Part shown: piece after piece, positions 6,992-22,457 of the stretch
How positions within the stretch are numbered: the first letter of the stretch is position 1
Layout of the letters: each line of letters opens with the position of its first letter
DNA from: Fimbriimonadaceae bacterium
GTDB taxonomy: Bacteria > Armatimonadota > UBA10988
DNA: 64,000 nucleotides
Direction of reading: 5' to 3'
NCBI GenBank assembly: GCA_020850355.1
Contig: JADZEX010000050.1
Location: 186,001 to 250,000, forward strand
Notes under the pieces: model-generated
The model's database searches: none
The model's input: the letters and a program-made list of their open reading frames with translations, nothing else
What the model was told of the DNA's origin: nothing
Program-made: the position numbers and the translations under genes

Positions 6992-7852
6992 TCAATCCAC
7001 CAACACGGTCTTGATGTTCACCTTGAGCTTGCCGCCGACGGTCAGCTTCTGCCCGCCCGACGGCGCCATGGTCATTTTGCCGAGCGCGCCGAGGGTCGCC
7101 AGCTCGACCACCGACTGCCCGCCCTCGATATCGAAGTAGGTCGTCAGGTGGCCCAGGATGGTGCCCTCCAGGGACAGCCCCAACTCGCTGCTCTCCTTGT
7201 CCTTCGGCGTGCGCAGCGGCACCTCGAAGTCGGTCACCAGCTCGGCGCAGACCTTGCCGTTGATGGTCACCAGCCGCTCCAAGCGGGTCACCGCGGTGAT
7301 CTCCTCGAAGGTCCGCACCTTTGGGTCGTCCGGCGTCAGGTCGACCTTGATGTGCTCTTCCCACTTGTCGCCGGCGTTGACGTCGCGCTCGGGGAACTCC
7401 AGGTGGTCGAAGATCTGCTGCACAATCGCGAACTCGTCGAGCTTGGTGGTGTAGCCCATCCCCGGCTCGCTGTCGTCGTCCTTGGCGAGGGTCTTGCGCT
7501 CGAGCACGCGCCCCCGGCTGGTCATCTTGATCCGCTCGGGATCGCCGAGATGTTCACTCTTCTCGGCCTTGCCGTCCTCGGGCTGCATCGCCGAGCTGTT
7601 TTCGAGCGTCTGGTAGTGGATCTGGTAGCGCTCGCCGTCGACCTTCTCAACCTTCTGTTCGAGCAGGCTCTCGCTGCGGAACTGCCAGCGCACCGGGTCC
7701 TCACCCTTGGTCTCGGCGGCGAAGGCCATCGCCACCTGGTCGCGGTAGCGGTTCTTCTCCCCGCTCTCGTACTTGTAGCGCAGCACCACCGCCGCCGCCG
7801 GCGAGTGCGCCAGTGCGACGGTCAACAGCATACCCAGCCAGACGCGTTTCAC
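6992..7852 (-). CDS. Secreted DUF6263-like protein, paralogue 3, coupled to uvrA
   Basis: About 286 aa from a GTG at 7852, preceded by a strong GGGAGG site seven bases away. The start overlaps the uvrA stop codon as GTGA (7849-7852), so translation is coupled. Signal peptide KRVWLGMLLTVALAHSPAAA is followed by LRYKYESGEKNRYRDQVAM, the family start. The middle holds NAGDKWEEHIKVDL, equivalent to the GGTW segment of the paralogues. Transcription with a DNA-repair gene is probably a shared promoter rather than a shared function, though the 4-base overlap shows a stable arrangement. Function unknown. Confidence 0.65.
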   Translation of the reverse strand: MKRVWLGMLLTVALAHSPAAAVVLRYKYESGEKNRYRDQVAMAFAAETKGEDPVRWQFRSESLLEQKVEKVDGERYQIHYQTLENSSAMQPEDGKAEKSEHLGDPERIKMTSRGRVLERKTLAKDDDSEPGMGYTTKLDEFAIVQQIFDHLEFPERDVNAGDKWEEHIKVDLTPDDPKVRTFEEITAVTRLERLVTINGKVCAELVTDFEVPLRTPKDKESSELGLSLEGTILGHLTTYFDIEGGQSVVELATLGALGKMTMAPSGGQKLTVGGKLKVNIKTVLVD

Positions 7853-10800
7853 CGTTCTGCCTCCCAAGACGCCCGCAACAGGTCCGCCAGCCAATCGCGG
7901 AACGGCGCAGCCGTGAACTCCGCGGGGGCTACGAAATCGAACCGAAACTCCTCACCGCCGTCCCAGCGACGCCAACTGACCCGCGGTCCCGTCCGCTCCA
8001 GCGGTGGATCCAACTCGTGCCATGGACGCAGGTTGGCGCGCTCCGCGACATACCGCAACCCGAAGCGGTTGAATGGTGCCCGCAGCAGCAGCCGCAGGCT
8101 CTCCGGGCGACTGGTCCGGATCCGCGCCCACCACCGCCGCGAACCGGTTAAGCTGAGCGCCACGAACTCCGGGTTTCGCCAATCGGGCGGCCCCACCTGC
8201 TCTCCCAACGCGCTCAGCACGGCCAGCAATTCCGTCAGGTCATCGCCCCGCCACACCGCCTCGGTGCGCTGGCTGAAGGCCAGTTGGAGCCGGTGCCAGC
8301 GCTCGTCGGGATCGTCGATCAGCTCCGCGGGCGCCGCCGCGGCGACCGTCGCCACGGTGCGTTGCGGGTCGAGCACCGCCCGCAGCGCGACGCCGGTGTG
8401 GCTGCCGGCCGCCCGCGCAATCTGCTCCGGCGGGCCGACCGCCACCAGCTCACCGCCCCGTTCACCACCCTCGGGCCCCAGGTCGATCACATGGTCGGCG
8501 TGCTTGATGACCTCCAGGTTGTGCTCGATCACGAGCACCGTGTTGCCCTCGTCGACCAGCCGGTCGAGCACCTGCAACAGCCGGCGCACGTCCTCGAAGT
8601 GCAGCCCGGTGGTGGGCTCGTCGAGCAGATAGAGCGTCTGCCCGGTGCTCGGCCGCGAGAGCTCCTTGGCCAACTTGACGCGCTGCGCCTCGCCGCCGGA
8701 GAGGGTCAGGGCGCTCTGTCCCAGAGTCAGGTAGCCCAGACCCACTTCCCGCAGCATCCGCAGCGCCGGGCGCACCGTCGGGATGCTGCTGAAGTGGCTC
8801 ACCGCCTCGTCGACCGTGGCGCGCAGCACATCGGCGATGGACCAGCCCTTGAACTGCACTTCCAGGGTTTCGGCGGTGTAGCGCCGTCCCTCGCACTCCT
8901 CGCAGGGCAACCAGACGTCGGCCAGGAAGTGCATCTCGATGCGCCGCGAGCCGAGTCCCCAACAGGCCTCGCAGCGGCCGCCGGGGCGGTTGAAGCTGAA
9001 GCGGTCCATGTTGTAGCCGCGCAGCCTGGCCGCCGGCAAGGTCGCATAGAGGGCCCGCAAGTGGTCGAAGGCCCCGACGTAGATCACCGGGTTGGAGCGC
9101 GGATTGTCGCCGATCGGGTGCTGGTCGATGCTGATCACTTTGTCGATCCAGCGCAGCCCCTCCAAGCCGTCGTGGGCCCCCACCGGGAGCTGCGCGCGGT
9201 GCAACTCGCGGGCCAGGGCCGGGTAGATGATGTCGGTCACCAGCGACGACTTGCCGGAGCCGCTGACCCCGGTGACCACCGTCAACGTCCCAAGCGGGAG
9301 ATGGACATCGAGCCCCTTGAGGTTGTGGTGGCGGGCGTTGAGGACGGTCAGCGTGCCGCCGTTGCCGGTCCGGCGCCGGCTCGGTAGCGGCACGCTGGTC
9401 TGCCCGGCGAGGTACTGCCCGGTCAACGAAGCTGGCTGTTGCTGCAACTCGGTCGGGGTGCCGCTGGCGACGATCTGGCCGCCCTGCACCCCGGCGCCGG
9501 GCCCGAAGTCGAGCACGTAGTCGGCGCTGCGAATGGCGTCCGGGTCGTGCTCGACCAGCAGCACGGTGTTGCCAAGGTCGCGCAGATTGGCCAGCGCGCG
9601 CAGCAGCCGGGCGTTGTCACGTTGATGCAGCCCGATGGTCGGCTCGTCGAGAATGTAGAGCACCCCGGTCAGACCGCCGCCGATCTGGCTGGCCAGCCGG
9701 ATCCGCTGCGCCTCACCGCCCGAGAGCGAGCCGGAGCCGCGGCCGAGGGTCAGGTACTCGAGCCCGACGTCGAGCAGGAACCCCAACCGGCGGCGGATCT
9801 CGCGCAACGGTTCGGCCCCGACCGGCAACTCGCGCGGGCTCAGCTCCAGGCTCTCGAAGAGGCGGGCCACCGCGCTGAGCGGCAGGCCGCTGAGCGCCGG
9901 CAAGGTCTGTTCCCGGAAGCGGACCACCGCGGCCTCGGGGCGCAGCCGGCCGCCCTGGCACTCGCGGCACGGCACATCGCGGCGCAACGGCGCGATCTCG
10001 GTGCGGTACATCCCGGAGTCGTACAACTCGGTCAGCAACGGCACCACCCCACGCCAGCTCTGTCGCGACTGGCCGCCACCGTCGTTCGGCACGGCCACCT
10101 CCCAGTCCGTGCCCCACAACAGCGCCTGGCGGTCGTCGGCCGGCCAGCGGCCGAGCGCCTCTTCGAGCGGCCAGCCCAGGTCGCGGGCGGTCTGCTCGAA
10201 GAGCACCTTCAGCGGGCGCCGGCGCAACAGCAGCGCGAGGCACTCGACGCCACCCTCGCGGACGGTGCGGTGCCGCTCGCCGAGCACCAGGTCGGGGTCG
10301 ACCCCGTGCTGGAAGCCGAGGCCCTGACAGGCGGGGCACCAGCCCAGGGGGGCGTTGAAACTGAAGTGCTGCGGGCCCAACTCCTCGTAGGCCCGGCCAC
10401 ACTGGGTGCAGCTCCAACGCCGACTGAAGAGCACCTCGCCCGGCCGCACGCCCTGCGACTCGGTGCCGGGCAGCACCTCAACCAGCATCTCGCCGTCGCC
10501 CCGGTCAAGTGCCAGCTCGACGGCCTCGGCGGTGCGTCCCCGTCGGTCGGGCCGGACCACCAGCCGGTCGACCACCACCTCGACGCGGTAGACGCGGCGG
10601 CGGTCGATCTGAATCTGCTCCTCGAGTTCGCGCACCGCGCCGTCGATCCGGACCCGCAGGAAGCCGTCGCGCCGCAGTCGGTCGAAGGCCTCGTCGTAGC
10701 TCTCGTTGCGCGCCAGCAGCAGCGGCGCCAGCAGGTTCAGGCGGGTCCCCTCGGGGAAGGCCTGGATCCGGTCGACCATCTCGTCGACGGTCTGGCGCCC

Positions 10801-13800
10801 CACGCGGGCCCCGTCATCGAGGCAGTGGCGGTCGCCCAGCCGTGACCAGAGCAGGCGCAGGTAGTCGTGAATCTCGGTCACGGTGCCGACGGTCGACCGC
10901 GGGTTGCGGCTGCCAGCGCGCTGTTCGATGCTGATCGCCGGCGAGAGCCCCGAGACGAAGTCCACCGGCGGCTTCTCGAGCTGGTTGATGAACTGCCGCG
11001 CGTAGCTCGACAGGCTCTCGACGTAGCGCCGCTGCCCTTCGGCGTAGATGGTGTCGAGCGCCAGCGAGGTCTTGCCCGATCCGCTCAGCCCAGTCAACAC
11101 GGTCAGCTTGTCGCGGGGGATCGTCGCATTGACGTTGCGCAGGTTGTTGGCCCGCGCGCCTTGCACGACAATCGCCGAGAGCGGCGCCCAGGGCGACGGC
11201 CGGGCCGCCTGCTGCCCGAACCGCCCGCCGCGCTCGACGGTCGTGTCACCGGCCAGGCCGAGCACCGGACGGAGACAGACGCCGGTCGGGCTGGCGTCGC
11301 AGCCGGCTACCGTTTCGGGGGTGCCCTCGGCGATCACCAGGCCGCCGCCGGCGCCGCCCTCGGGCCCCAGGTCGATCAACCAGTCGGCCGTCTTGATGAC
11401 GTCCAGGTTGTGCTCGATCACGACCACCGTATTGCCCTCGTTGACCAGCCGCTGCAGCACCTCCAGCAGCTTGCGGATGTCTTCGAAGTGCAGCCCGGTG
11501 GTCGGTTCGTCCAACAGGTAGATGGTCTTGCCGGTGCTCCGCTTGCTCAGCTCGCGGCTCAGCTTGATGCGCTGCGCCTCGCCTCCCGACAAGGTCGGCG
11601 CGGGCTGCCCGAGCTGAATGTAGTCGAGCCCGACATCGACCAGCGTGCGCAGCGTGCGGGCGATGCTCGGGATGTCGGCGAAGTGCTCCGCCGCCTCGGC
11701 GACGCTCATCTGCAAGACATCGGCGATGTGCCGGCTCTTGTAGCGGACCTGCAGCACGTCCTGCTTGAAACGCGCTCCGGCGCAGATGTCGCACTCCACC
11801 CAGACGTCGTCCAGGAAGTCCATCTCGACTTTCTGGTAGCCCAGCCCGTCGCACGCTTCGCAGCGGCCGGCGGCGACGTTGAAGCTGAAGTGGCCTGGGC
11901 CGTAGCCCCGCACCAACGCCTCGGGCAGCTTCGCGAAGAGCTGCCGAATCGGGTCGAGCACCTTGGTGTAGGTGGCCGGATTGCTGCGCGGCGTGCGCCC
12001 GATCGGCGCCTGATCGATGTTGATCACCTTGTCGAGTTGGGCCAGGCCGTCGATCCCATCGTGCTCGCCTGGCTGCGTCTCGGCGCCGTTCAGGTCGCGG
12101 GCCAGCGCCAGGTGCAGGATGTCGTTGATCAGCGAGGACTTCCCCGAGCCCGACACGCCGGTCACGCCGACGAACACCCCCAGCGGCAGCCGGACATCGA
12201 TCCCGCGCAGGTTGTTGTGGCGCGCGCCGCGGATTGCCAGGCTGCGCTCGATGTCGACTGCGCGCCGGGCGGCCGGCACCGCGATCTGCCGGCGGCCGGT
12301 GAGGTAGTCGGCGGTCAGGCTGTCGGACGCCGCGACCGCCGCCGGTTGTCCCGCGGCGACGATCTGGCCGCCCAGCCGCCCCGGGCCGGGGCCGATGTCT
12401 ACCAGGAAGTCGGCGGCCTGCATCGTCTCCTCGTCGTGCTCCACCACAATCACGGTGTTGCCGAGATCGCGCAGCCGCTTCAAGGTCGCCAGGAGATGCC
12501 GGTTGTCGCGCTGATGCAGCCCGATGCTGGGCTCGTCCAGGACGTAGGTCACGCCCACCAGACCAGCGCCGATCTGGCTGGCCAGGCGGATCCGCTGGCC
12601 CTCGCCACCGGACAGGCTGGGCGCGCTGCGGTCGAGGCTGAGGTAATGCAGGCCGACGTCCAGCAGGAAGTTCAGCCGCCCGCGGATCTCGCGGACCAGG
12701 TCGCCACCTATCAGCTCCTGCCGCTCCGTGAAGCGCAGGTCGTCGAAGAAGCCGACCGCGTCGGCGATGCTGCGGGCGCACAGCGCGCTGATGTTGAGGC
12801 CGCCGATCTGCACCTTGCGCGCTTCGGGGTTGAGCCGCTGCCCGTCGCAGTCGTGACATGGCGCGAGGTGGACCCACCGGTTGAGGTGGTGCTCCTCATC
12901 GACCGCCTGCACCTCGCCGGCGCCCTGTCCGAAGTAGGCCAGGAGCCCTTCGTAGGTGCCCTGATAGGCCATCCGGTGGCCACCGTGGCTGACATAGGTG
13001 TAGCCGATCCGCTCGGCGGTGCCGTTCAGGATGACCCCGCGGACGGCCTCGGGCAAGTCCCGCCAGGGCTTGTCGAGGCTGAACTTGAAGTGCTTCGCGA
13101 GACCCTGCAGGATGTGCTGCAGCCGCAGGGTCTTGAGGTGGTTGGCCCACGGCGCCACCGCGCCCTGGTTGATGCTCAGGGCGTCGTCCGGGATCACCCG
13201 CGGCAGGTCCAGCTCGGTGCGCACCCCCAGCCCGTGGCAGGTGGAGCACATGCCCTGCAGGCTGTTGAAGCTGAAGCGCTGCGGCGAAGGCTCGACGTAG
13301 CTGGTGCCGCAGACCGGGCAGGAGTAATCGCGGCTGAAGAAGATGTCGCGCGCCGCCGCTTCGTCGTCGGGCGGCATCACGTTGACGATCAGCTTGCCTT
13401 CGCCGTGCCGCAAAGTTAGCTCGATGCTGTCGGACAGCCGGCTGCCGAGGTCGGACTTGATCACCAGCCGGTCGACCACCAGTTCCAGATCGTGGCGGCG
13501 CTGGCGGTCCAGCCGGATCTCCTGCGCCAGCTCCATCACCGTGCCGTCGACCCGTACGCGCAGGAAGCCAGCCTTGCGGGCGTCCTCGAAGACTTCACGA
13601 AACTCGCCCCGGCGTTGCCGCGCCAGCGGTGCCAGGAGCTGGATCCGCGAGCGGTCGGGCAGGGCTCGAATGCGGTCGATGATCTCCTGGGTGGTCTGCC
13701 GCCCAACGAGCTGGCCGCAACACTCGATTTGCCCCAGCCGGGCATACAGCACGCGCAGGTAATCGTAGATCTCGGTGACCGTGGCGACCGTCGAGCGCGG

Positions 13801-14085
13801 GTTGGAGTCGGTCGACTTCTGCTGGATCGCGATGGCCGGCGAGAGGCCTTCGATGCGCTCGACGTCCGGCCGCTTGAGCGAGCCGAGGTGCTGCCGCGCG
13901 CCGGCCGACAGGCTCTCGATGTACCGCCGCTGCCCCTCGGCGTAGATCGTGTCGAACGCCAGCGACGACTTGCCCGACCCCGAGACCCCGGTCAGCACGA
14001 TCAACTTGTCGCGCGGCAACTCCAAGTCGATGCCCCGCAGGTTGTGCTCCCGCGCACCGGTGATACAGATCCGAGGTTCCGCCAT
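7849..14085 (-). CDS. uvrA: Double-length excinuclease ABC subunit A (two UvrA units fused)
   Basis: About 2078 aa, roughly twice a normal UvrA (about 940). It recognises DNA lesions and loads UvrB in nucleotide excision repair. Four ABC heads are visible: Walker A GVSGSGKSS (33-41), a second copy of the same motif, GLSGSGKTS (near 1001) and a last GVSGSGKSS. The signatures are LSGGEGQRI, LSGGEAQRI, LSGGEAQRI and LSGGEAQRV. Each half has CxxC zinc-binding modules (CPVC/CSTC, CEAC/CDIC, CTQC/CPAC, CEAC/CEEC). The second unit starts near residue 968. Residues about 1905-2078 form an extra C-terminal domain I do not recognise, rich in Trp and Arg. The ATG at 14085 is chosen over 14142 because AAGGCGG precedes it. 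Tandem UvrA is known from Chlamydiae and Planctomycetes. All motifs look intact. Confidence 0.95.
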   Translation of the reverse strand: MAEPRICITGAREHNLRGIDLELPRDKLIVLTGVSGSGKSSLAFDTIYAEGQRRYIESLSAGARQHLGSLKRPDVERIEGLSPAIAIQQKSTDSNPRSTVATVTEIYDYLRVLYARLGQIECCGQLVGRQTTQEIIDRIRALPDRSRIQLLAPLARQRRGEFREVFEDARKAGFLRVRVDGTVMELAQEIRLDRQRRHDLELVVDRLVIKSDLGSRLSDSIELTLRHGEGKLIVNVMPPDDEAAARDIFFSRDYSCPVCGTSYVEPSPQRFSFNSLQGMCSTCHGLGVRTELDLPRVIPDDALSINQGAVAPWANHLKTLRLQHILQGLAKHFKFSLDKPWRDLPEAVRGVILNGTAERIGYTYVSHGGHRMAYQGTYEGLLAYFGQGAGEVQAVDEEHHLNRWVHLAPCHDCDGQRLNPEARKVQIGGLNISALCARSIADAVGFFDDLRFTERQELIGGDLVREIRGRLNFLLDVGLHYLSLDRSAPSLSGGEGQRIRLASQIGAGLVGVTYVLDEPSIGLHQRDNRHLLATLKRLRDLGNTVIVVEHDEETMQAADFLVDIGPGPGRLGGQIVAAGQPAAVAASDSLTADYLTGRRQIAVPAARRAVDIERSLAIRGARHNNLRGIDVRLPLGVFVGVTGVSGSGKSSLINDILHLALARDLNGAETQPGEHDGIDGLAQLDKVINIDQAPIGRTPRSNPATYTKVLDPIRQLFAKLPEALVRGYGPGHFSFNVAAGRCEACDGLGYQKVEMDFLDDVWVECDICAGARFKQDVLQVRYKSRHIADVLQMSVAEAAEHFADIPSIARTLRTLVDVGLDYIQLGQPAPTLSGGEAQRIKLSRELSKRSTGKTIYLLDEPTTGLHFEDIRKLLEVLQRLVNEGNTVVVIEHNLDVIKTADWLIDLGPEGGAGGGLVIAEGTPETVAGCDASPTGVCLRPVLGLAGDTTVERGGRFGQQAARPSPWAPLSAIVVQGARANNLRNVNATIPRDKLTVLTGLSGSGKTSLALDTIYAEGQRRYVESLSSYARQFINQLEKPPVDFVSGLSPAISIEQRAGSRNPRSTVGTVTEIHDYLRLLWSRLGDRHCLDDGARVGRQTVDEMVDRIQAFPEGTRLNLLAPLLLARNESYDEAFDRLRRDGFLRVRIDGAVRELEEQIQIDRRRVYRVEVVVDRLVVRPDRRGRTAEAVELALDRGDGEMLVEVLPGTESQGVRPGEVLFSRRWSCTQCGRAYEELGPQHFSFNAPLGWCPACQGLGFQHGVDPDLVLGERHRTVREGGVECLALLLRRRPLKVLFEQTARDLGWPLEEALGRWPADDRQALLWGTDWEVAVPNDGGGQSRQSWRGVVPLLTELYDSGMYRTEIAPLRRDVPCRECQGGRLRPEAAVVRFREQTLPALSGLPLSAVARLFESLELSPRELPVGAEPLREIRRRLGFLLDVGLEYLTLGRGSGSLSGGEAQRIRLASQIGGGLTGVLYILDEPTIGLHQRDNARLLRALANLRDLGNTVLLVEHDPDAIRSADYVLDFGPGAGVQGGQIVASGTPTELQQQPASLTGQYLAGQTSVPLPSRRRTGNGGTLTVLNARHHNLKGLDVHLPLGTLTVVTGVSGSGKSSLVTDIIYPALARELHRAQLPVGAHDGLEGLRWIDKVISIDQHPIGDNPRSNPVIYVGAFDHLRALYATLPAARLRGYNMDRFSFNRPGGRCEACWGLGSRRIEMHFLADVWLPCEECEGRRYTAETLEVQFKGWSIADVLRATVDEAVSHFSSIPTVRPALRMLREVGLGYLTLGQSALTLSGGEAQRVKLAKELSRPSTGQTLYLLDEPTTGLHFEDVRRLLQVLDRLVDEGNTVLVIEHNLEVIKHADHVIDLGPEGGERGGELVAVGPPEQIARAAGSHTGVALRAVLDPQRTVATVAAAAPAELIDDPDERWHRLQLAFSQRTEAVWRGDDLTELLAVLSALGEQVGPPDWRNPEFVALSLTGSRRWWARIRTSRPESLRLLLRAPFNRFGLRYVAERANLRPWHELDPPLERTGPRVSWRRWDGGEEFRFDFVAPAEFTAAPFRDWLADLLRASWEAER

Positions 14086-14156
14086 CGTACGCCGCCGCCT
14101 TGCCCGCGCCGCCGGGCCGATCCAGAAAGTCTGACGCGCCACGGGCCGAGCCGGAA

Positions 14157-14228: not shown

Positions 14229-15242
14229 TCAGCCCCTCCCCGGTGCACCGGCCGGCGGGCCGGGACGGAGGCGGCGTGGGAGATCCGAGTGATCGAGGCC
14301 TGACTCATCGACCTGCTCGGACAGCGCGTCCACCTCAGTGTTGGATCGAGCTGCCTCCCAGCGGATCTCCCTCATGGCGCGAGCCAGCGCGGCATGGCAG
14401 CCGTCGGGCCGGAGCGGGAGGTCCGGGTCGCCGTCGATGAACGGCTCCGTGAGGGCGTGCGTGTGCTCGAAGAAACGACGACAGAAGCCCTCAACCTCGC
14501 GCGGTCGGGGGCGGGCGGGGGCCTCGGCCAGAGCCCGTCCGAGCACGCGTTCGGCGTCGTCGACCGGGTGACCGATGGGCACGGCGAACACCGGGTAGGC
14601 GTTGCCATCCAGGATGCCTGGCAGGACCTGGCCGCCGCAGTAGGCCAAGCGGAGGCCGCTCTGTCTGACGCGCCGGATCCCGATGGCAAGCACCAGTGCC
14701 AGGCCTGCGTCGATGGTGATGCGGTCTCGTCTGGCCAATCGCGCCAGGCGGAACCCGAGGTCGATTTCTGGTCCGATCAGATCGGCGGGCCGGCCCTCGC
14801 TGTCCTTCGTCCGGATGTTCCGCACCGGGAACCCCGCGACCCAGGCGGCCGCCTTGAGGTCCATTGGGAACGGCCGGTCGGCAGCGACTTCATGTGGCGC
14901 GGCCTCCTTCCAGCGCGTCCGGAACTCACGCAGCAACCGGCGTAGCACTTGGAGGTGACCGACGGCATCCGTGCATCGCCGTAGTGGGGCTTCGAGCAGC
15001 ACCTCGTCGCCGTTGAGTTTCCAGGTCGCCAGGGGCGCCAGCGCGACGTTGGCGCCAGCGGCGTAAGCCTCGTCGAGCCAGCCCTCGACGCCGCGGTAGA
15101 ACACCTCGAACCAGACCGGCCAAGGGACGCTGTCAAAACGGCCGGTGCCGCCGTGCTGCTTCAGCTGGGTTGAGCCGACCAGGTCAATGCTGACCAGCAG
15201 CCGCAAGCACCACGGGGAGTCTGAGCCAGGCCTCTCAAGCAC
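14229..15242 (-). CDS. Class III nucleotidyl cyclase-like protein
   Basis: 337 aa from a GTG at 15242 that overlaps the end of the peptidase gene by eight bases, with GGAG seven bases upstream. The N-terminal half carries class III cyclase hallmarks: the first metal-Asp motif SIDLVGST (Asp20), then WKLNGDEVLLEA (Lys75 base-recognition position, Asp79 second metal), and EIDLGFRLA (Arg165). The last corresponds to the transition-state helix VNxAxR, but the usual Asn is Asp161. No membrane or sensor domain is visible. The C-terminal 110 or so residues are unassigned and end in a Pro/Gly-rich tail. Cytosolic production of a cyclic nucleotide, possibly a pyrimidine one as in Pycsar systems, is the inferred role. 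Confidence 0.6.
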   Translation of the reverse strand: MLERPGSDSPWCLRLLVSIDLVGSTQLKQHGGTGRFDSVPWPVWFEVFYRGVEGWLDEAYAAGANVALAPLATWKLNGDEVLLEAPLRRCTDAVGHLQVLRRLLREFRTRWKEAAPHEVAADRPFPMDLKAAAWVAGFPVRNIRTKDSEGRPADLIGPEIDLGFRLARLARRDRITIDAGLALVLAIGIRRVRQSGLRLAYCGGQVLPGILDGNAYPVFAVPIGHPVDDAERVLGRALAEAPARPRPREVEGFCRRFFEHTHALTEPFIDGDPDLPLRPDGCHAALARAMREIRWEAARSNTEVDALSEQVDESGLDHSDLPRRLRPGPPAGAPGRG

Positions 15243-15762
15243 CCGGCAACTCCAGCGCCTTGGCCCGGGTGCGGGCGGCCGCCGGCGATACGCCGAAGGT
15301 CTGGGCCACGCGGCGGGCGCTCTGTGAGGACTCCCGCCACGCGCGCTGGAAGCGGTCGGCGGGCATCAGCAACTCGGCTGCAAACCAGTTGGCTTCCCAC
15401 TCCAGCCGGGCCGGCGCACCACTCCGTTGGCAGCGGCCCGGGCGCTCGCCCTGGCGGGCGTGCAACACGTAATGCGCCAGCTCATGCGCCAGCGTGAAGC
15501 GATCGCGGAGGCCATTGGTCTGCCGCGGCAGGTACACGGTGAACTCGCTCGGCCCGCGGACTTCGATGCTGCCATGGTCGTCACTGCCGAGGAGATCGTA
15601 GTAACACAACTCGCCACCCAGCCACTGCACCACGCGGTACAGGTCGCCCGCGTCCCGGTAGTCCAGTTCGCTCTCGAGTTGGGCGCGAATCTCCCTGGCC
15701 ACTTCCTCGATCGCGTGTCTGGAAAGCCCGCTCTCCGGCAGTTCAGTCTGGATGCCGATCAC
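15235..15762 (-). CDS. ImmA/IrrE-family metallopeptidase
   Basis: About 175 aa from a GTG at 15762, chosen for the GGGAGG site seven bases upstream. A further upstream start would precede the predicted transcription start. The zinc motif HELAH (93-97) in RFTLAHELAHYVLH and the downstream EWEANWFAAELLMP (Glu123 as third ligand) are diagnostic of ImmA/IrrE (COG2856) peptidases. These typically cleave an XRE-type repressor after a stress or DNA-damage cue. No XRE gene is adjacent here. The only partner is the overlapping cyclase-like gene, so the peptidase may be controlled by, or act on, that product. It is single-domain and soluble. Confidence 0.85.
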   Translation of the reverse strand: MIGIQTELPESGLSRHAIEEVAREIRAQLESELDYRDAGDLYRVVQWLGGELCYYDLLGSDDHGSIEVRGPSEFTVYLPRQTNGLRDRFTLAHELAHYVLHARQGERPGRCQRSGAPARLEWEANWFAAELLMPADRFQRAWRESSQSARRVAQTFGVSPAAARTRAKALELPGA

Positions 15763-15808
15763 GGCAGTCCTCCCTGACGCAGGCACCGCGGCACCCGCTG
15801 CGAACTGC

Positions 15809-20492: not shown

Positions 20493-21569
20493 ATGGACGA
20501 CCAACCCGCGCTGCCTCTCGACACGATCCACCTCGGCGACTGCCTCGACTGGCTGCGCTCTCTGCCAACCGGATCGGTTGACCTGGTGGTCTCCTCGCCG
20601 CCCTACAATCTGGGCAAGGAGTACGAGGCGCGGGTCGCGCTGGACCACTACCTGCAGCAACAGCGCGCCGTCTTGGCCGAGTGCGTCCGGGTCTTGCGCC
20701 ACACCGGTTCGCTGGTCTGGCAGGTCGGCGCCTTTGCGGATGCCGGCCTGCTGATCCCGCTCGACATCCGCTTTTTCCCGATCCTAGAGGACCTGGGGCT
20801 GCTGCCACGCAGTCGCGTTGTCTGGGCTCGGACGCACGGACTGCACGGCCGGCGGAAGTTCTCCTGTCGGCACGAAACGCTGCTCTGGTTCACCAAGTCC
20901 GACAACTATGCCTTCGACCTGGACGCGGTCCGGGTGCCGCAGAAGTACCAGAACAAGCGCCACTACCGGGGAGACCGTCGAGGCGAGCTGTCGTGCAACC
21001 CCGCGGGGAAGAACCCCGGAGATATCTGGGTGTTCCGAAATGTGAAGCACAACCACGAGGAGCAAACCGTCCACCCCTGCCAGTTCCCGGAAGACCTGAT
21101 CGCCCGGGTGCTGCTGGCACTGACCACCGATGGTGCGGTGGTGTTGGATCCCTACATGGGCTCCGGTACGGTGGCCGTGGTGGCACAGGAGCTAGGCAGG
21201 CATTACCTTGGCGCCGAGACCGACCCGCTCTACCACGAGGTGGCACTTCGCCGACTGGCTGGGACACCGGATCAGGGCGGGCGATTCCCGAACCTCAAGA
21301 CCCTGCGGGCCTTTGTGGCACTCCGCGGCGGCGGCGCTGAGGGCTACAGCTTCGACGTGCAGGTCGGCGCCAGGCCAACCGAGCAAGAGCGCTCTCGCAT
21401 CTACCCCGAGGAGCACCATCGCCAGGAACTGGAGGAGCGCCTGACGTACGAGGAAGAGCACTTCACTGCCCGCTGGCGAGGGGTACCGGCCCCGCCACCT
21501 CCGCACGGCCAGCACGACCGGCCGGCCAACACCCAGCACAACGGTCAGGCGTCCTTGTTCGATGACTAG
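20493..21569 (+). CDS. Type II DNA methyltransferase, beta class
   Basis: 358 aa. The catalytic motif SPPYNLG is near the N-terminus and the AdoMet motif DPYMGSGT near residue 215, the order of beta-class amino-methyltransferases (N6-adenine or N4-cytosine). SPPY is compatible with either base. The start has no ribosome site and lies next to a promoter. The C-terminal 100 residues, including an acidic stretch and a Pro/His-rich tail, are probably target-recognition and accessory parts. The gene converges on the nuclease gene and their ends overlap by four bases. It protects the host against that nuclease. Confidence 0.9.
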   Translation: MDDQPALPLDTIHLGDCLDWLRSLPTGSVDLVVSSPPYNLGKEYEARVALDHYLQQQRAVLAECVRVLRHTGSLVWQVGAFADAGLLIPLDIRFFPILEDLGLLPRSRVVWARTHGLHGRRKFSCRHETLLWFTKSDNYAFDLDAVRVPQKYQNKRHYRGDRRGELSCNPAGKNPGDIWVFRNVKHNHEEQTVHPCQFPEDLIARVLLALTTDGAVVLDPYMGSGTVAVVAQELGRHYLGAETDPLYHEVALRRLAGTPDQGGRFPNLKTLRAFVALRGGGAEGYSFDVQVGARPTEQERSRIYPEEHHRQELEERLTYEEEHFTARWRGVPAPPPPHGQHDRPANTQHNGQASLFDD

Positions 21570-22210
21570 GCCCGGTCGATGCGGAAGCCGCGCTGCACCG
21601 CTGTGACCCGGCACCGGACCTGCTCCGATCGATGTAGGGTGCGCGATCGAGCATCGGCGTACGTCGAGAGGATCGCCGTCGTCTCGCCTACCGCCCATCC
21701 CAGCCCGACCAGCCGCACAGGTACGGTTACAATGCCCTGGTCGACGAGCAACGCGAGTTGCCGGTTGGCCTGCTCGTAGTACAAGCTGCTGTTGGCGCTT
21801 GGCAGGTCACCGCGAGCCGCCAGGACGAGCAGCCCCGCGACCGGGTGGTCGGCCACGGTCCCGCGCGCACGCCACAGCGCTGCTGCGCGGATGACGTTGT
21901 TCGCGAAGAACGGGTAGTTCGAGAACTGGACTTCCAGGACTATTCCGCCCAGGGCGAAGTCAACCGCTGTGCCGAAGGGGCCGACCAAGGCCGGCAACTG
22001 CACGCGGTCTTGCCAGCCAAGACCGGACAGCCCCGCGACCAAGTGCCGATTCGTCGCGACCGGATCAAACCTCAGCCGCCCTTGCTGCCCGGCTTGCTGC
22101 GACGCCTTGACAAACAGCGGCGTGGCGGCGATTAGGTGCGCCAACTGCGGCCAGGCGACGCCGAACGGGGCGCCGGCAATCTCGTTGAAGTCGCGGTACT
22201 CACAGAGCAT
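21566..22210 (-). CDS. BglII-type type II restriction endonuclease
   Basis: 214 aa from the ATG at 22210, which overlaps the controller gene by 11 bases. The segment VDFALGGIVLEVQFSNYPF gives Asp-x8-Glu-x-Gln, the exact spacing of the BglII catalytic residues (Asp84, Glu93, Gln95 in that enzyme). Size and context (controller upstream, methyltransferase converging) agree. It should cut unmodified DNA as a homodimer. The recognition sequence cannot be read from the gene. AGATCT, the BglII site, is present several times in this window and so is not avoided here. Confidence 0.75.
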   Translation of the reverse strand: MLCEYRDFNEIAGAPFGVAWPQLAHLIAATPLFVKASQQAGQQGRLRFDPVATNRHLVAGLSGLGWQDRVQLPALVGPFGTAVDFALGGIVLEVQFSNYPFFANNVIRAAALWRARGTVADHPVAGLLVLAARGDLPSANSSLYYEQANRQLALLVDQGIVTVPVRLVGLGWAVGETTAILSTYADARSRTLHRSEQVRCRVTAVQRGFRIDRA

Positions 22211-22457
22211 CCGCTGACTCCGGCGGATGCAGCAGCCGAGTAAGGAGCGCAGCCGGGTCGCCGCCAAGCGCGTTGGCAACCGCCACAAACTCGATGACGT
22301 CGAGTCGTCGTTCGCCGGTCTCGTACTTGGAAACGAAGGACTGCGGGCGATCCAACAGGGCAGCAAGCGCTGCTTGCGTCAGACCGGCGGCCTGGCGGCT
22401 GGCTACCAGGAGCTGGCATAGCTGGCGGAACTGCGCCGATCCTGAGGTGCGGGACAC
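22200..22457 (-). CDS. XRE-family controller (C) protein of the restriction-modification system
   Basis: 85 aa from a GTG at 22457, with GGAG ten bases upstream. A compact helix-turn-helix is visible: LCQLLVASRQAAGLTQAALA, then DRPQSFVSKYETGERRLDV, as in Cro/C.BclI-type regulators. Its size and its overlap with the nuclease gene fit a controller protein that delays nuclease expression after entry into a new host. No clear C-box repeat was found in the short upstream region. Confidence 0.8.
   Translation of the reverse strand: MSRTSGSAQFRQLCQLLVASRQAAGLTQAALAALLDRPQSFVSKYETGERRLDVIEFVAVANALGGDPAALLTRLLHPPESADAL

Follow-up and report, generated by a model that had tools for sequence, protein, structure and literature searches.

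A mobile two-gene module pairing a minimal ImmA/IrrE-type metallopeptidase with a predicted divergent class III nucleotidyl cyclase

In the 64,000-nucleotide stretch of DNA analysed here (the window), a gene for a metallopeptidase of the ImmA/IrrE type overlaps a gene whose product carries the metal-binding motifs of a nucleotidyl cyclase. This arrangement raises the question of whether the peptidase and the cyclase form a conserved functional unit and, if so, which of the two proteins acts on the other. The original prediction proposed a protease switch controlled by a nucleotide, with a possible link to the Pycsar immune system. The results described below establish that the pair recurs as a mobile module, and favour the cyclase, rather than the peptidase, as its output.

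A peptidase gene overlaps a cyclase-like gene

The observation of this gene pair is confirmed, and the coordinates of the open reading frames (ORFs) agree with the eight-base overlap first noted (Table 1). The pair is flanked by a 2097-aa UvrA-like ORF 87 bp downstream and by a 1120-aa ORF upstream. Judged from the ORFs, neither was taken to be an HTH gene, in agreement with the claim that no regulator resides beside the pair. The downstream ORF (window 7849–14142, minus strand) resembles a head-to-tail fusion of two UvrA copies.

Table 1 Features of the peptidase–cyclase locus in the window
Feature	Position	Strand	Basis or conservation
ImmA/IrrE-type (Peptidase_M78) minimal metallopeptidase, 175 aa	15235..15762	-	GTG start at 15762
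Shine-Dalgarno-like AGGGAGGA ahead of the ImmA GTG start	15768..15775	-	Read from sequence
HELAH zinc-binding motif, ImmA residues 93-97	15472..15486	-	Translation
8-bp overlap, ImmA end and cyclase GTG start	15235..15242	-	ORF coordinates
Divergent class III nucleotidyl cyclase homologue, 337 aa	14229..15242	-	GTG start; AlphaFold, Foldseek, VIA
Predicted cyclase domain, about residues 1-226, then C-terminal helical tail	within 14229..15242	-	AlphaFold model
SIDLVGST, metal Asp D20 (codon 15183-15185)	15168..15191	-	D20 in 106/107 aligned, remaining one a gap
WKLNGDE, K75 and metal Asp D79	15003..15023	-	K75 106/107; D79 107/107
DLIGPEIDLGFR: D154, D161, R165	14748..14783	-	D161 and R165 107/107; D154 101, six Glu
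P208 in the window copy	14619..14621	-	Lys or Arg in 105/107 relatives

The peptidase is a minimal ImmA/IrrE protein

The window peptidase (hereafter ImmA) belongs to the Peptidase_M78 family, matching the Pfam profile PF06114 at 1.9e-19 and 70.1 bits, against a curated cut-off of 22, with its HELAH (HExxH) motif intact. Among 65 homologues, H93 and E94 are each conserved in more than 90% and H97 is invariant; this alignment holds 65 of 67 ImmA proteins, with those of L110 and L113 left out (loci carry numbers prefixed by L). An AlphaFold model built from the same 65 rows is confident nearly throughout (pLDDT 91.8). Both the model and the Pfam match indicate that the protein stops after the peptidase and a helical, HTH-like part, without a C-terminal sensor domain. 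ImmA proteins from paired loci range from 162 to 208 aa, close to the length of a PprI truncated before its GAF domain (residues 1–176), which, in the available text of PMC10904395, keeps basal cleavage and loses activation by single-stranded DNA.

The nearest relative of the window ImmA is CapP, both among PADLOC families (capP, 9.5e-23, covering CapP residues 19–150 of 242) and among solved chains searched with the ImmA profile (7t5t, 8.3e-18). However, the window locus differs from the CapP–CapH system of CBASS in that its peptidase is shorter by the C-terminal part, no repressor-like ORF (and thus no CapH) flanks the pair, and the partner is a class III cyclase rather than a CD-NTase operon. 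PprI/IrrE–DdrO and ImmA–ImmR likewise share an M78 peptidase with HExxH, but here a repressor gene is not adjacent. The GAF-like domain of PprI, as laid out in the available text of PMC10904395, is also missing.

The partner is predicted to be a divergent class III cyclase

Searches of Pfam, NCBIfam and PADLOC assigned the window cyclase to no family at E≤1, and a phmmer search of the PDB returned one chance-level match and nothing else. Across 74 family cyclases, a single protein matches Pfam PF00211, at only E 0.04. Profiles of the family reach the solved chain 1ybt weakly (E 1.4 with the first profile and 0.2 with a larger one), and therefore the evidence for the fold rests on the structural model. 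That AlphaFold model, built on 74 of the 101 cyclases in our collection, has a pLDDT of 86.4, and its top Foldseek matches are class III cyclases, including CyaB (3r5g, 1.1e-9). CyaB is also the best solved match by VIA (Z 16.4 over 188 residues at 3.4 Å). The assignment of a class III cyclase fold, on which the original prediction could have failed, thus stood. The uridylate cyclases 8jsz and 7r65 (BcPycC) appear in the Foldseek list at ranks 36 and 45, after adenylyl and guanylyl cyclases; they are absent among the 50 VIA matches listed, which excludes nothing. On the phage side the family already carries a label, phrog_18024, that is matched by both the window cyclase (5.1e-19) and Orf1 of Leptospira phage LE1 (7.3e-30) and to which no function is assigned.

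SIDLVGST and the NGDE within WKLNGDE, which had been proposed as metal motifs, hold the two class III metal Asp residues and are near-invariant in the family, as are W41, F48, K130 and a YP motif. Counts were made over 107 non-identical relatives, leaving out repeats (L001, L002, L005, L011, L117), identical sequences (L095, L101, L111, L112) and genes with no start (L068, L075, L078, L039). D154 and R165 align with an Asp and an Arg of Rv1900c. K75 we take to be the base-recognition position; the roles given to D154, to the transition-state Asn and to Lys-208 are likewise our assumptions, from knowledge of class III enzymes plus the Rv1900c alignment, as is the preference for ATP as substrate.

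Two features separate the family from canonical enzymes or the window copy from its relatives. First, the position of the canonical transition-state Asn is Asp (D161) in every member, where Rv1900c has His, and therefore activity is not assured. Second, the window copy carries Pro at position 208 where nearly all relatives have Lys or Arg, and thus the window cyclase may be weaker than its relatives. Compared with CyaB and Rv1900c, then, the family shares the predicted fold and, for Rv1900c, the aligned Asp and Arg positions, but differs by the Asp-for-Asn exchange, by an extra C-terminal tail and by its failure to match Pfam. The family cyclase is a putative producer of a cyclic mononucleotide.

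The pair recurs on chromosomes, plasmids and phages

A same-strand ImmA gene lies directly upstream of the cyclase gene in 45 of 80 genome loci and in 27 of 29 viral contigs, against a background of 87 ImmA matches among the 13,628 ORFs of all those loci; the pairing exceeds chance. The other two viral loci are L114, tallied as unpaired with 1.3 kb of upstream sequence present, and L099, which has almost none. Profile searches of other genomes later yielded 18 new loci with upstream sequence, 13 of them paired. This set omits L185 (the known L008 plasmid), L186 (the known L066), L197 (the second copy in the window's genome), and two cyclases for which upstream sequence is absent, that of L182 and the second one of L192. 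The pairing is therefore conserved elsewhere, and the prediction survives a comparison that could have refuted it. The genome loci were retrieved by one pattern (GPxIDxGFR-like), so that conservation of this stretch among them is by construction; viral and profile-found loci were retrieved without it, and the three cyclase motifs recur in the loci found by profile.

Several features indicate that the two genes travel as a unit. In most pairs the two genes either overlap or lie a few dozen bases apart. Beyond the pair, the next gene downstream has the same orientation in 29 cases and the opposite one in 38, and thus the two genes are the module. Distances between ImmA proteins correlate with those between cyclases (Mantel r 0.57, 0 of 2000 permutations, n=63), a correlation to which shared species history may contribute. 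The window's own genome holds a second pair, with a cyclase 40% identical to the first. The pair also occurs as Orf2–Orf1 of LE1 and on the plasmids p5 of Leptospira interrogans, pMYCCH.02 of Mycolicibacterium chubuense and pTM3 of Tistrella mobilis. Integrases and S24 repressors lie near viral copies, as judged from 94 of the 105 viral neighbours listed. Overall, the family occurs rarely and patchily: it is present in 2 of 291 genomes from the window's phylum and in 15 of 385, 3 of 288 and 3 of 294 genomes of three further groups, counts that in each case take in the genome around which the group was built. Fold, motifs, pairing and patchy spread, all computed, together show a mobile two-gene module carried by chromosomes, plasmids and temperate phages.

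Unpaired cyclases fall mostly into two clades from Caulobacterales, Sphingomonadales and relatives (13 and 17 rows), among 33 solos in the family tree, where L006 counts as paired. These clades sit in recurrent chromosomal neighbourhoods, and a copy on a Sphingomonas paeninsulae plasmid (L009) also falls among the solos. Solo cyclases retain the active site. Their tails are shorter (medians of 64 and 89 aa, versus 120 in paired cyclases), although tail length is confounded by phylogeny because the solos are mainly two clades. By eye, a RelA/SpoT-like gene lies near the solo cyclases of L019, L023, L025, L027 and L029, and likewise near those of L035, L055, L060, L071 and L085.

The module resembles Pycsar in places

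The proposed link to Pycsar held in part. In its favour, 4 of 72 paired loci carry a PycTM gene, scoring over the Pfam cut-off, as the adjacent member of the operon. This gene lies upstream of ImmA in L043, L069 and L119, and in L108 it shares 4 bp with the end of the cyclase gene. Because L043 and L069 are sisters, these additions look like three independent events. For comparison, 9 of 291 genomes from the window's phylum have a PycTM that exceeds the cut-off, as do 6 of 43 pair-bearing genomes, two of which are those of L043 and L069. No PycTM was found in the window's whole genome, and the window pair has no such effector adjacent. In L179, PycTM follows a 584-aa family cyclase, and the gene upstream is not recognizable as ImmA. 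In L119 (7962–9377), the family cyclase carries a fused NUDIX domain; PycTM lies upstream of it and another ImmA gene downstream.

Against the link, none of 74 family cyclases matches the PADLOC PycC models at E≤0.1, whereas a control cyclase (L128) matches 11 of them, the best at 8.4e-87; the family thus lies outside the PycC clade as modelled by PADLOC. The control comes from a PycTM and PycC operon (L128, 1300–2540) in a genome of the window's phylum. An hhalign comparison of the family with the single PycC sequence of L128 detected no similarity, which is weak evidence either way. In addition, the specificity residues of EaPycC and BcPycC, as given in the available text of PMC11224242, are unlike those of the family cyclase. 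The module and Pycsar therefore share a class III cyclase fold and, in a few loci, a PycTM-family operon gene, but differ in that ImmA is here the constant companion and most loci have no recognized adjacent effector. As tested, the pair works like Pycsar in places and is not a member of it.

The cyclase is favoured as the output

HExxH is kept in 70 of 72 paired ImmA proteins and lost in L082 and L090, where the cyclase is intact. The gene upstream of an intact cyclase in L052, tallied as unpaired, is an ImmA relative without HExxH (17.7 bits; hhalign 92%), and suspected ImmA remnants upstream of the cyclases in L031, L179, L184 and L196 were not significant. The catalytic residues of the family cyclase are essentially never lost. 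These HExxH losses, the persistence of solo clades and the PycTM additions favour the nucleotide as the output and ImmA as its dedicated partner, and leave the originally proposed nucleotide-controlled protease less well supported than the reverse.

We tentatively prefer, with confidence a little short of even, a reading in which a minimal ImmA regulates a divergent class III cyclase that serves as the output in a Pycsar-like role. Under stress, for example phage infection or damage to DNA, the cyclase would synthesize a cyclic mononucleotide, ATP being the most likely substrate given its Lys/Asp pair. The messenger would act on PycTM where this is encoded; in the other loci, its receptor would lie elsewhere in the cell. 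ImmA would be the dedicated regulator: it would bind the cyclase, probably by way of the long C-terminal tail, and would cleave either the cyclase or an inhibitor to set the cyclase on or off. Because ImmA lacks a sensor domain, we infer that sensing lies in the complex. Defence is a likely function, and the role of the module would most likely be defence or mobile-element conflict. The main weakness of this reading is the missing receptor, PycTM being unrecognized in the operon of 68 of 72 paired loci.

A more elaborate version makes the two proteins one self-contained complex, in which proteolysis and nucleotide synthesis gate each other, with PycTM or NUDIX as optional effectors. Such a system, combining a sensorless ImmA with a new cyclase clade, would constitute an unrecorded Pycsar-like branch; this is possible but doubtful. 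The target of ImmA may also be unlinked, as with PprI and ImmA.

Alternative functions

Among the rival explanations, the most durable remains a protease effector: the cyclase product, or the cyclase as a nucleotide sensor, would activate ImmA to cleave a repressor or an essential protein of host or phage. Because most operons lack a third gene, ImmA is the only candidate effector in them; it also lacks a sensor of its own, and its closest PADLOC family is CapP, described in the available text of PMC10904395 as the damage-responsive protease of CBASS. The loss of HExxH beside intact cyclases (L082, L090 and L052) and the persistence of solo cyclases nevertheless make this explanation unlikely, and the PycTM-bearing paired loci all retain ImmA, which is therefore not simply an interchangeable effector.

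A role in lysogeny or mobile-element control, with ImmA cleaving the element's repressor as in ImmA–ImmR and the cyclase coupling this to the nucleotide state of the host, would fit the near-universal pairing in viral loci. It would also fit the position of the LE1 pair, which adjoins a CI-like gene in an annotated immunity region, and the CI-like S24 repressor close upstream in three viral loci. We consider this quite unlikely, given that 45 of 80 genome loci are paired as well, in widely varying neighbourhoods mostly without an HTH gene alongside, and that conflict better explains the PycTM additions.

Still less probable is a host DNA-damage regulator, a cousin of PprI–DdrO in which the cyclase replaces the GAF domain. 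PprI logic (in the available text of PMC10904395) and the occurrence of uvrA or uvrB no more than three genes from the pair in L013, L026, L051 and L063 (4 of 70 paired loci), and in the window, speak for it. This neighbourhood was noticed post hoc, however, and neither gene is near any of the 13 later-set pairs; a further argument against is how patchily the family is distributed, with 2 of 291 genomes in the window's phylum carrying it. The names uvrA, uvrB and umuC are assignments made from characteristic motifs or by eye, except for two UvrB proteins identified by family scan. Downstream of the pair in L024, and convergent to it, lie genes that by eye resemble umuC and umuD.

That ImmA degrades or silences a toxic cyclase in a toxin–antitoxin-like pair is very improbable: the operon is short, mobile and often overlapping, and COG2856 proteins form many such pairs (available text of PMC2701414), but the two solo clades live without ImmA, and therefore the cyclase is not toxic there, and the COG2856 partners given in that text, which cites LE1 among phages with COG2856 operons, are Xre, PIN and RelE, with no cyclase.

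Implications and genomic surroundings

The literature as far as searched, at listing level, yielded no paper on an ImmA/IrrE–cyclase pair, and our results suggest that the pair is an undescribed switch for stress or anti-phage signalling. If so, an abundant protease family known for cutting repressors would gain a second, unrecognized class of partner, and the catalogue of cyclic-nucleotide immunity would be missing a clade that escapes the current PADLOC models. If the complex reading is true, ImmA proteins would have a use beyond cleaving HTH repressors. The pair is small and mobile and is present in cultivable hosts (LE1 with the saprophyte Leptospira biflexa, and cultured proteobacteria), and therefore the prediction is directly testable.

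Among 135 neighbours of 44 paired genome loci, PADLOC gave scattered matches to restriction–modification, RmrA, PycTM and other models, on which we base no claim of enrichment. In the window itself, a type II restriction–modification gene pair (20493–22366; MTase_II 1.6e-110, REase_II 5.3e-33) resides about 5 kb from the peptidase–cyclase pair.
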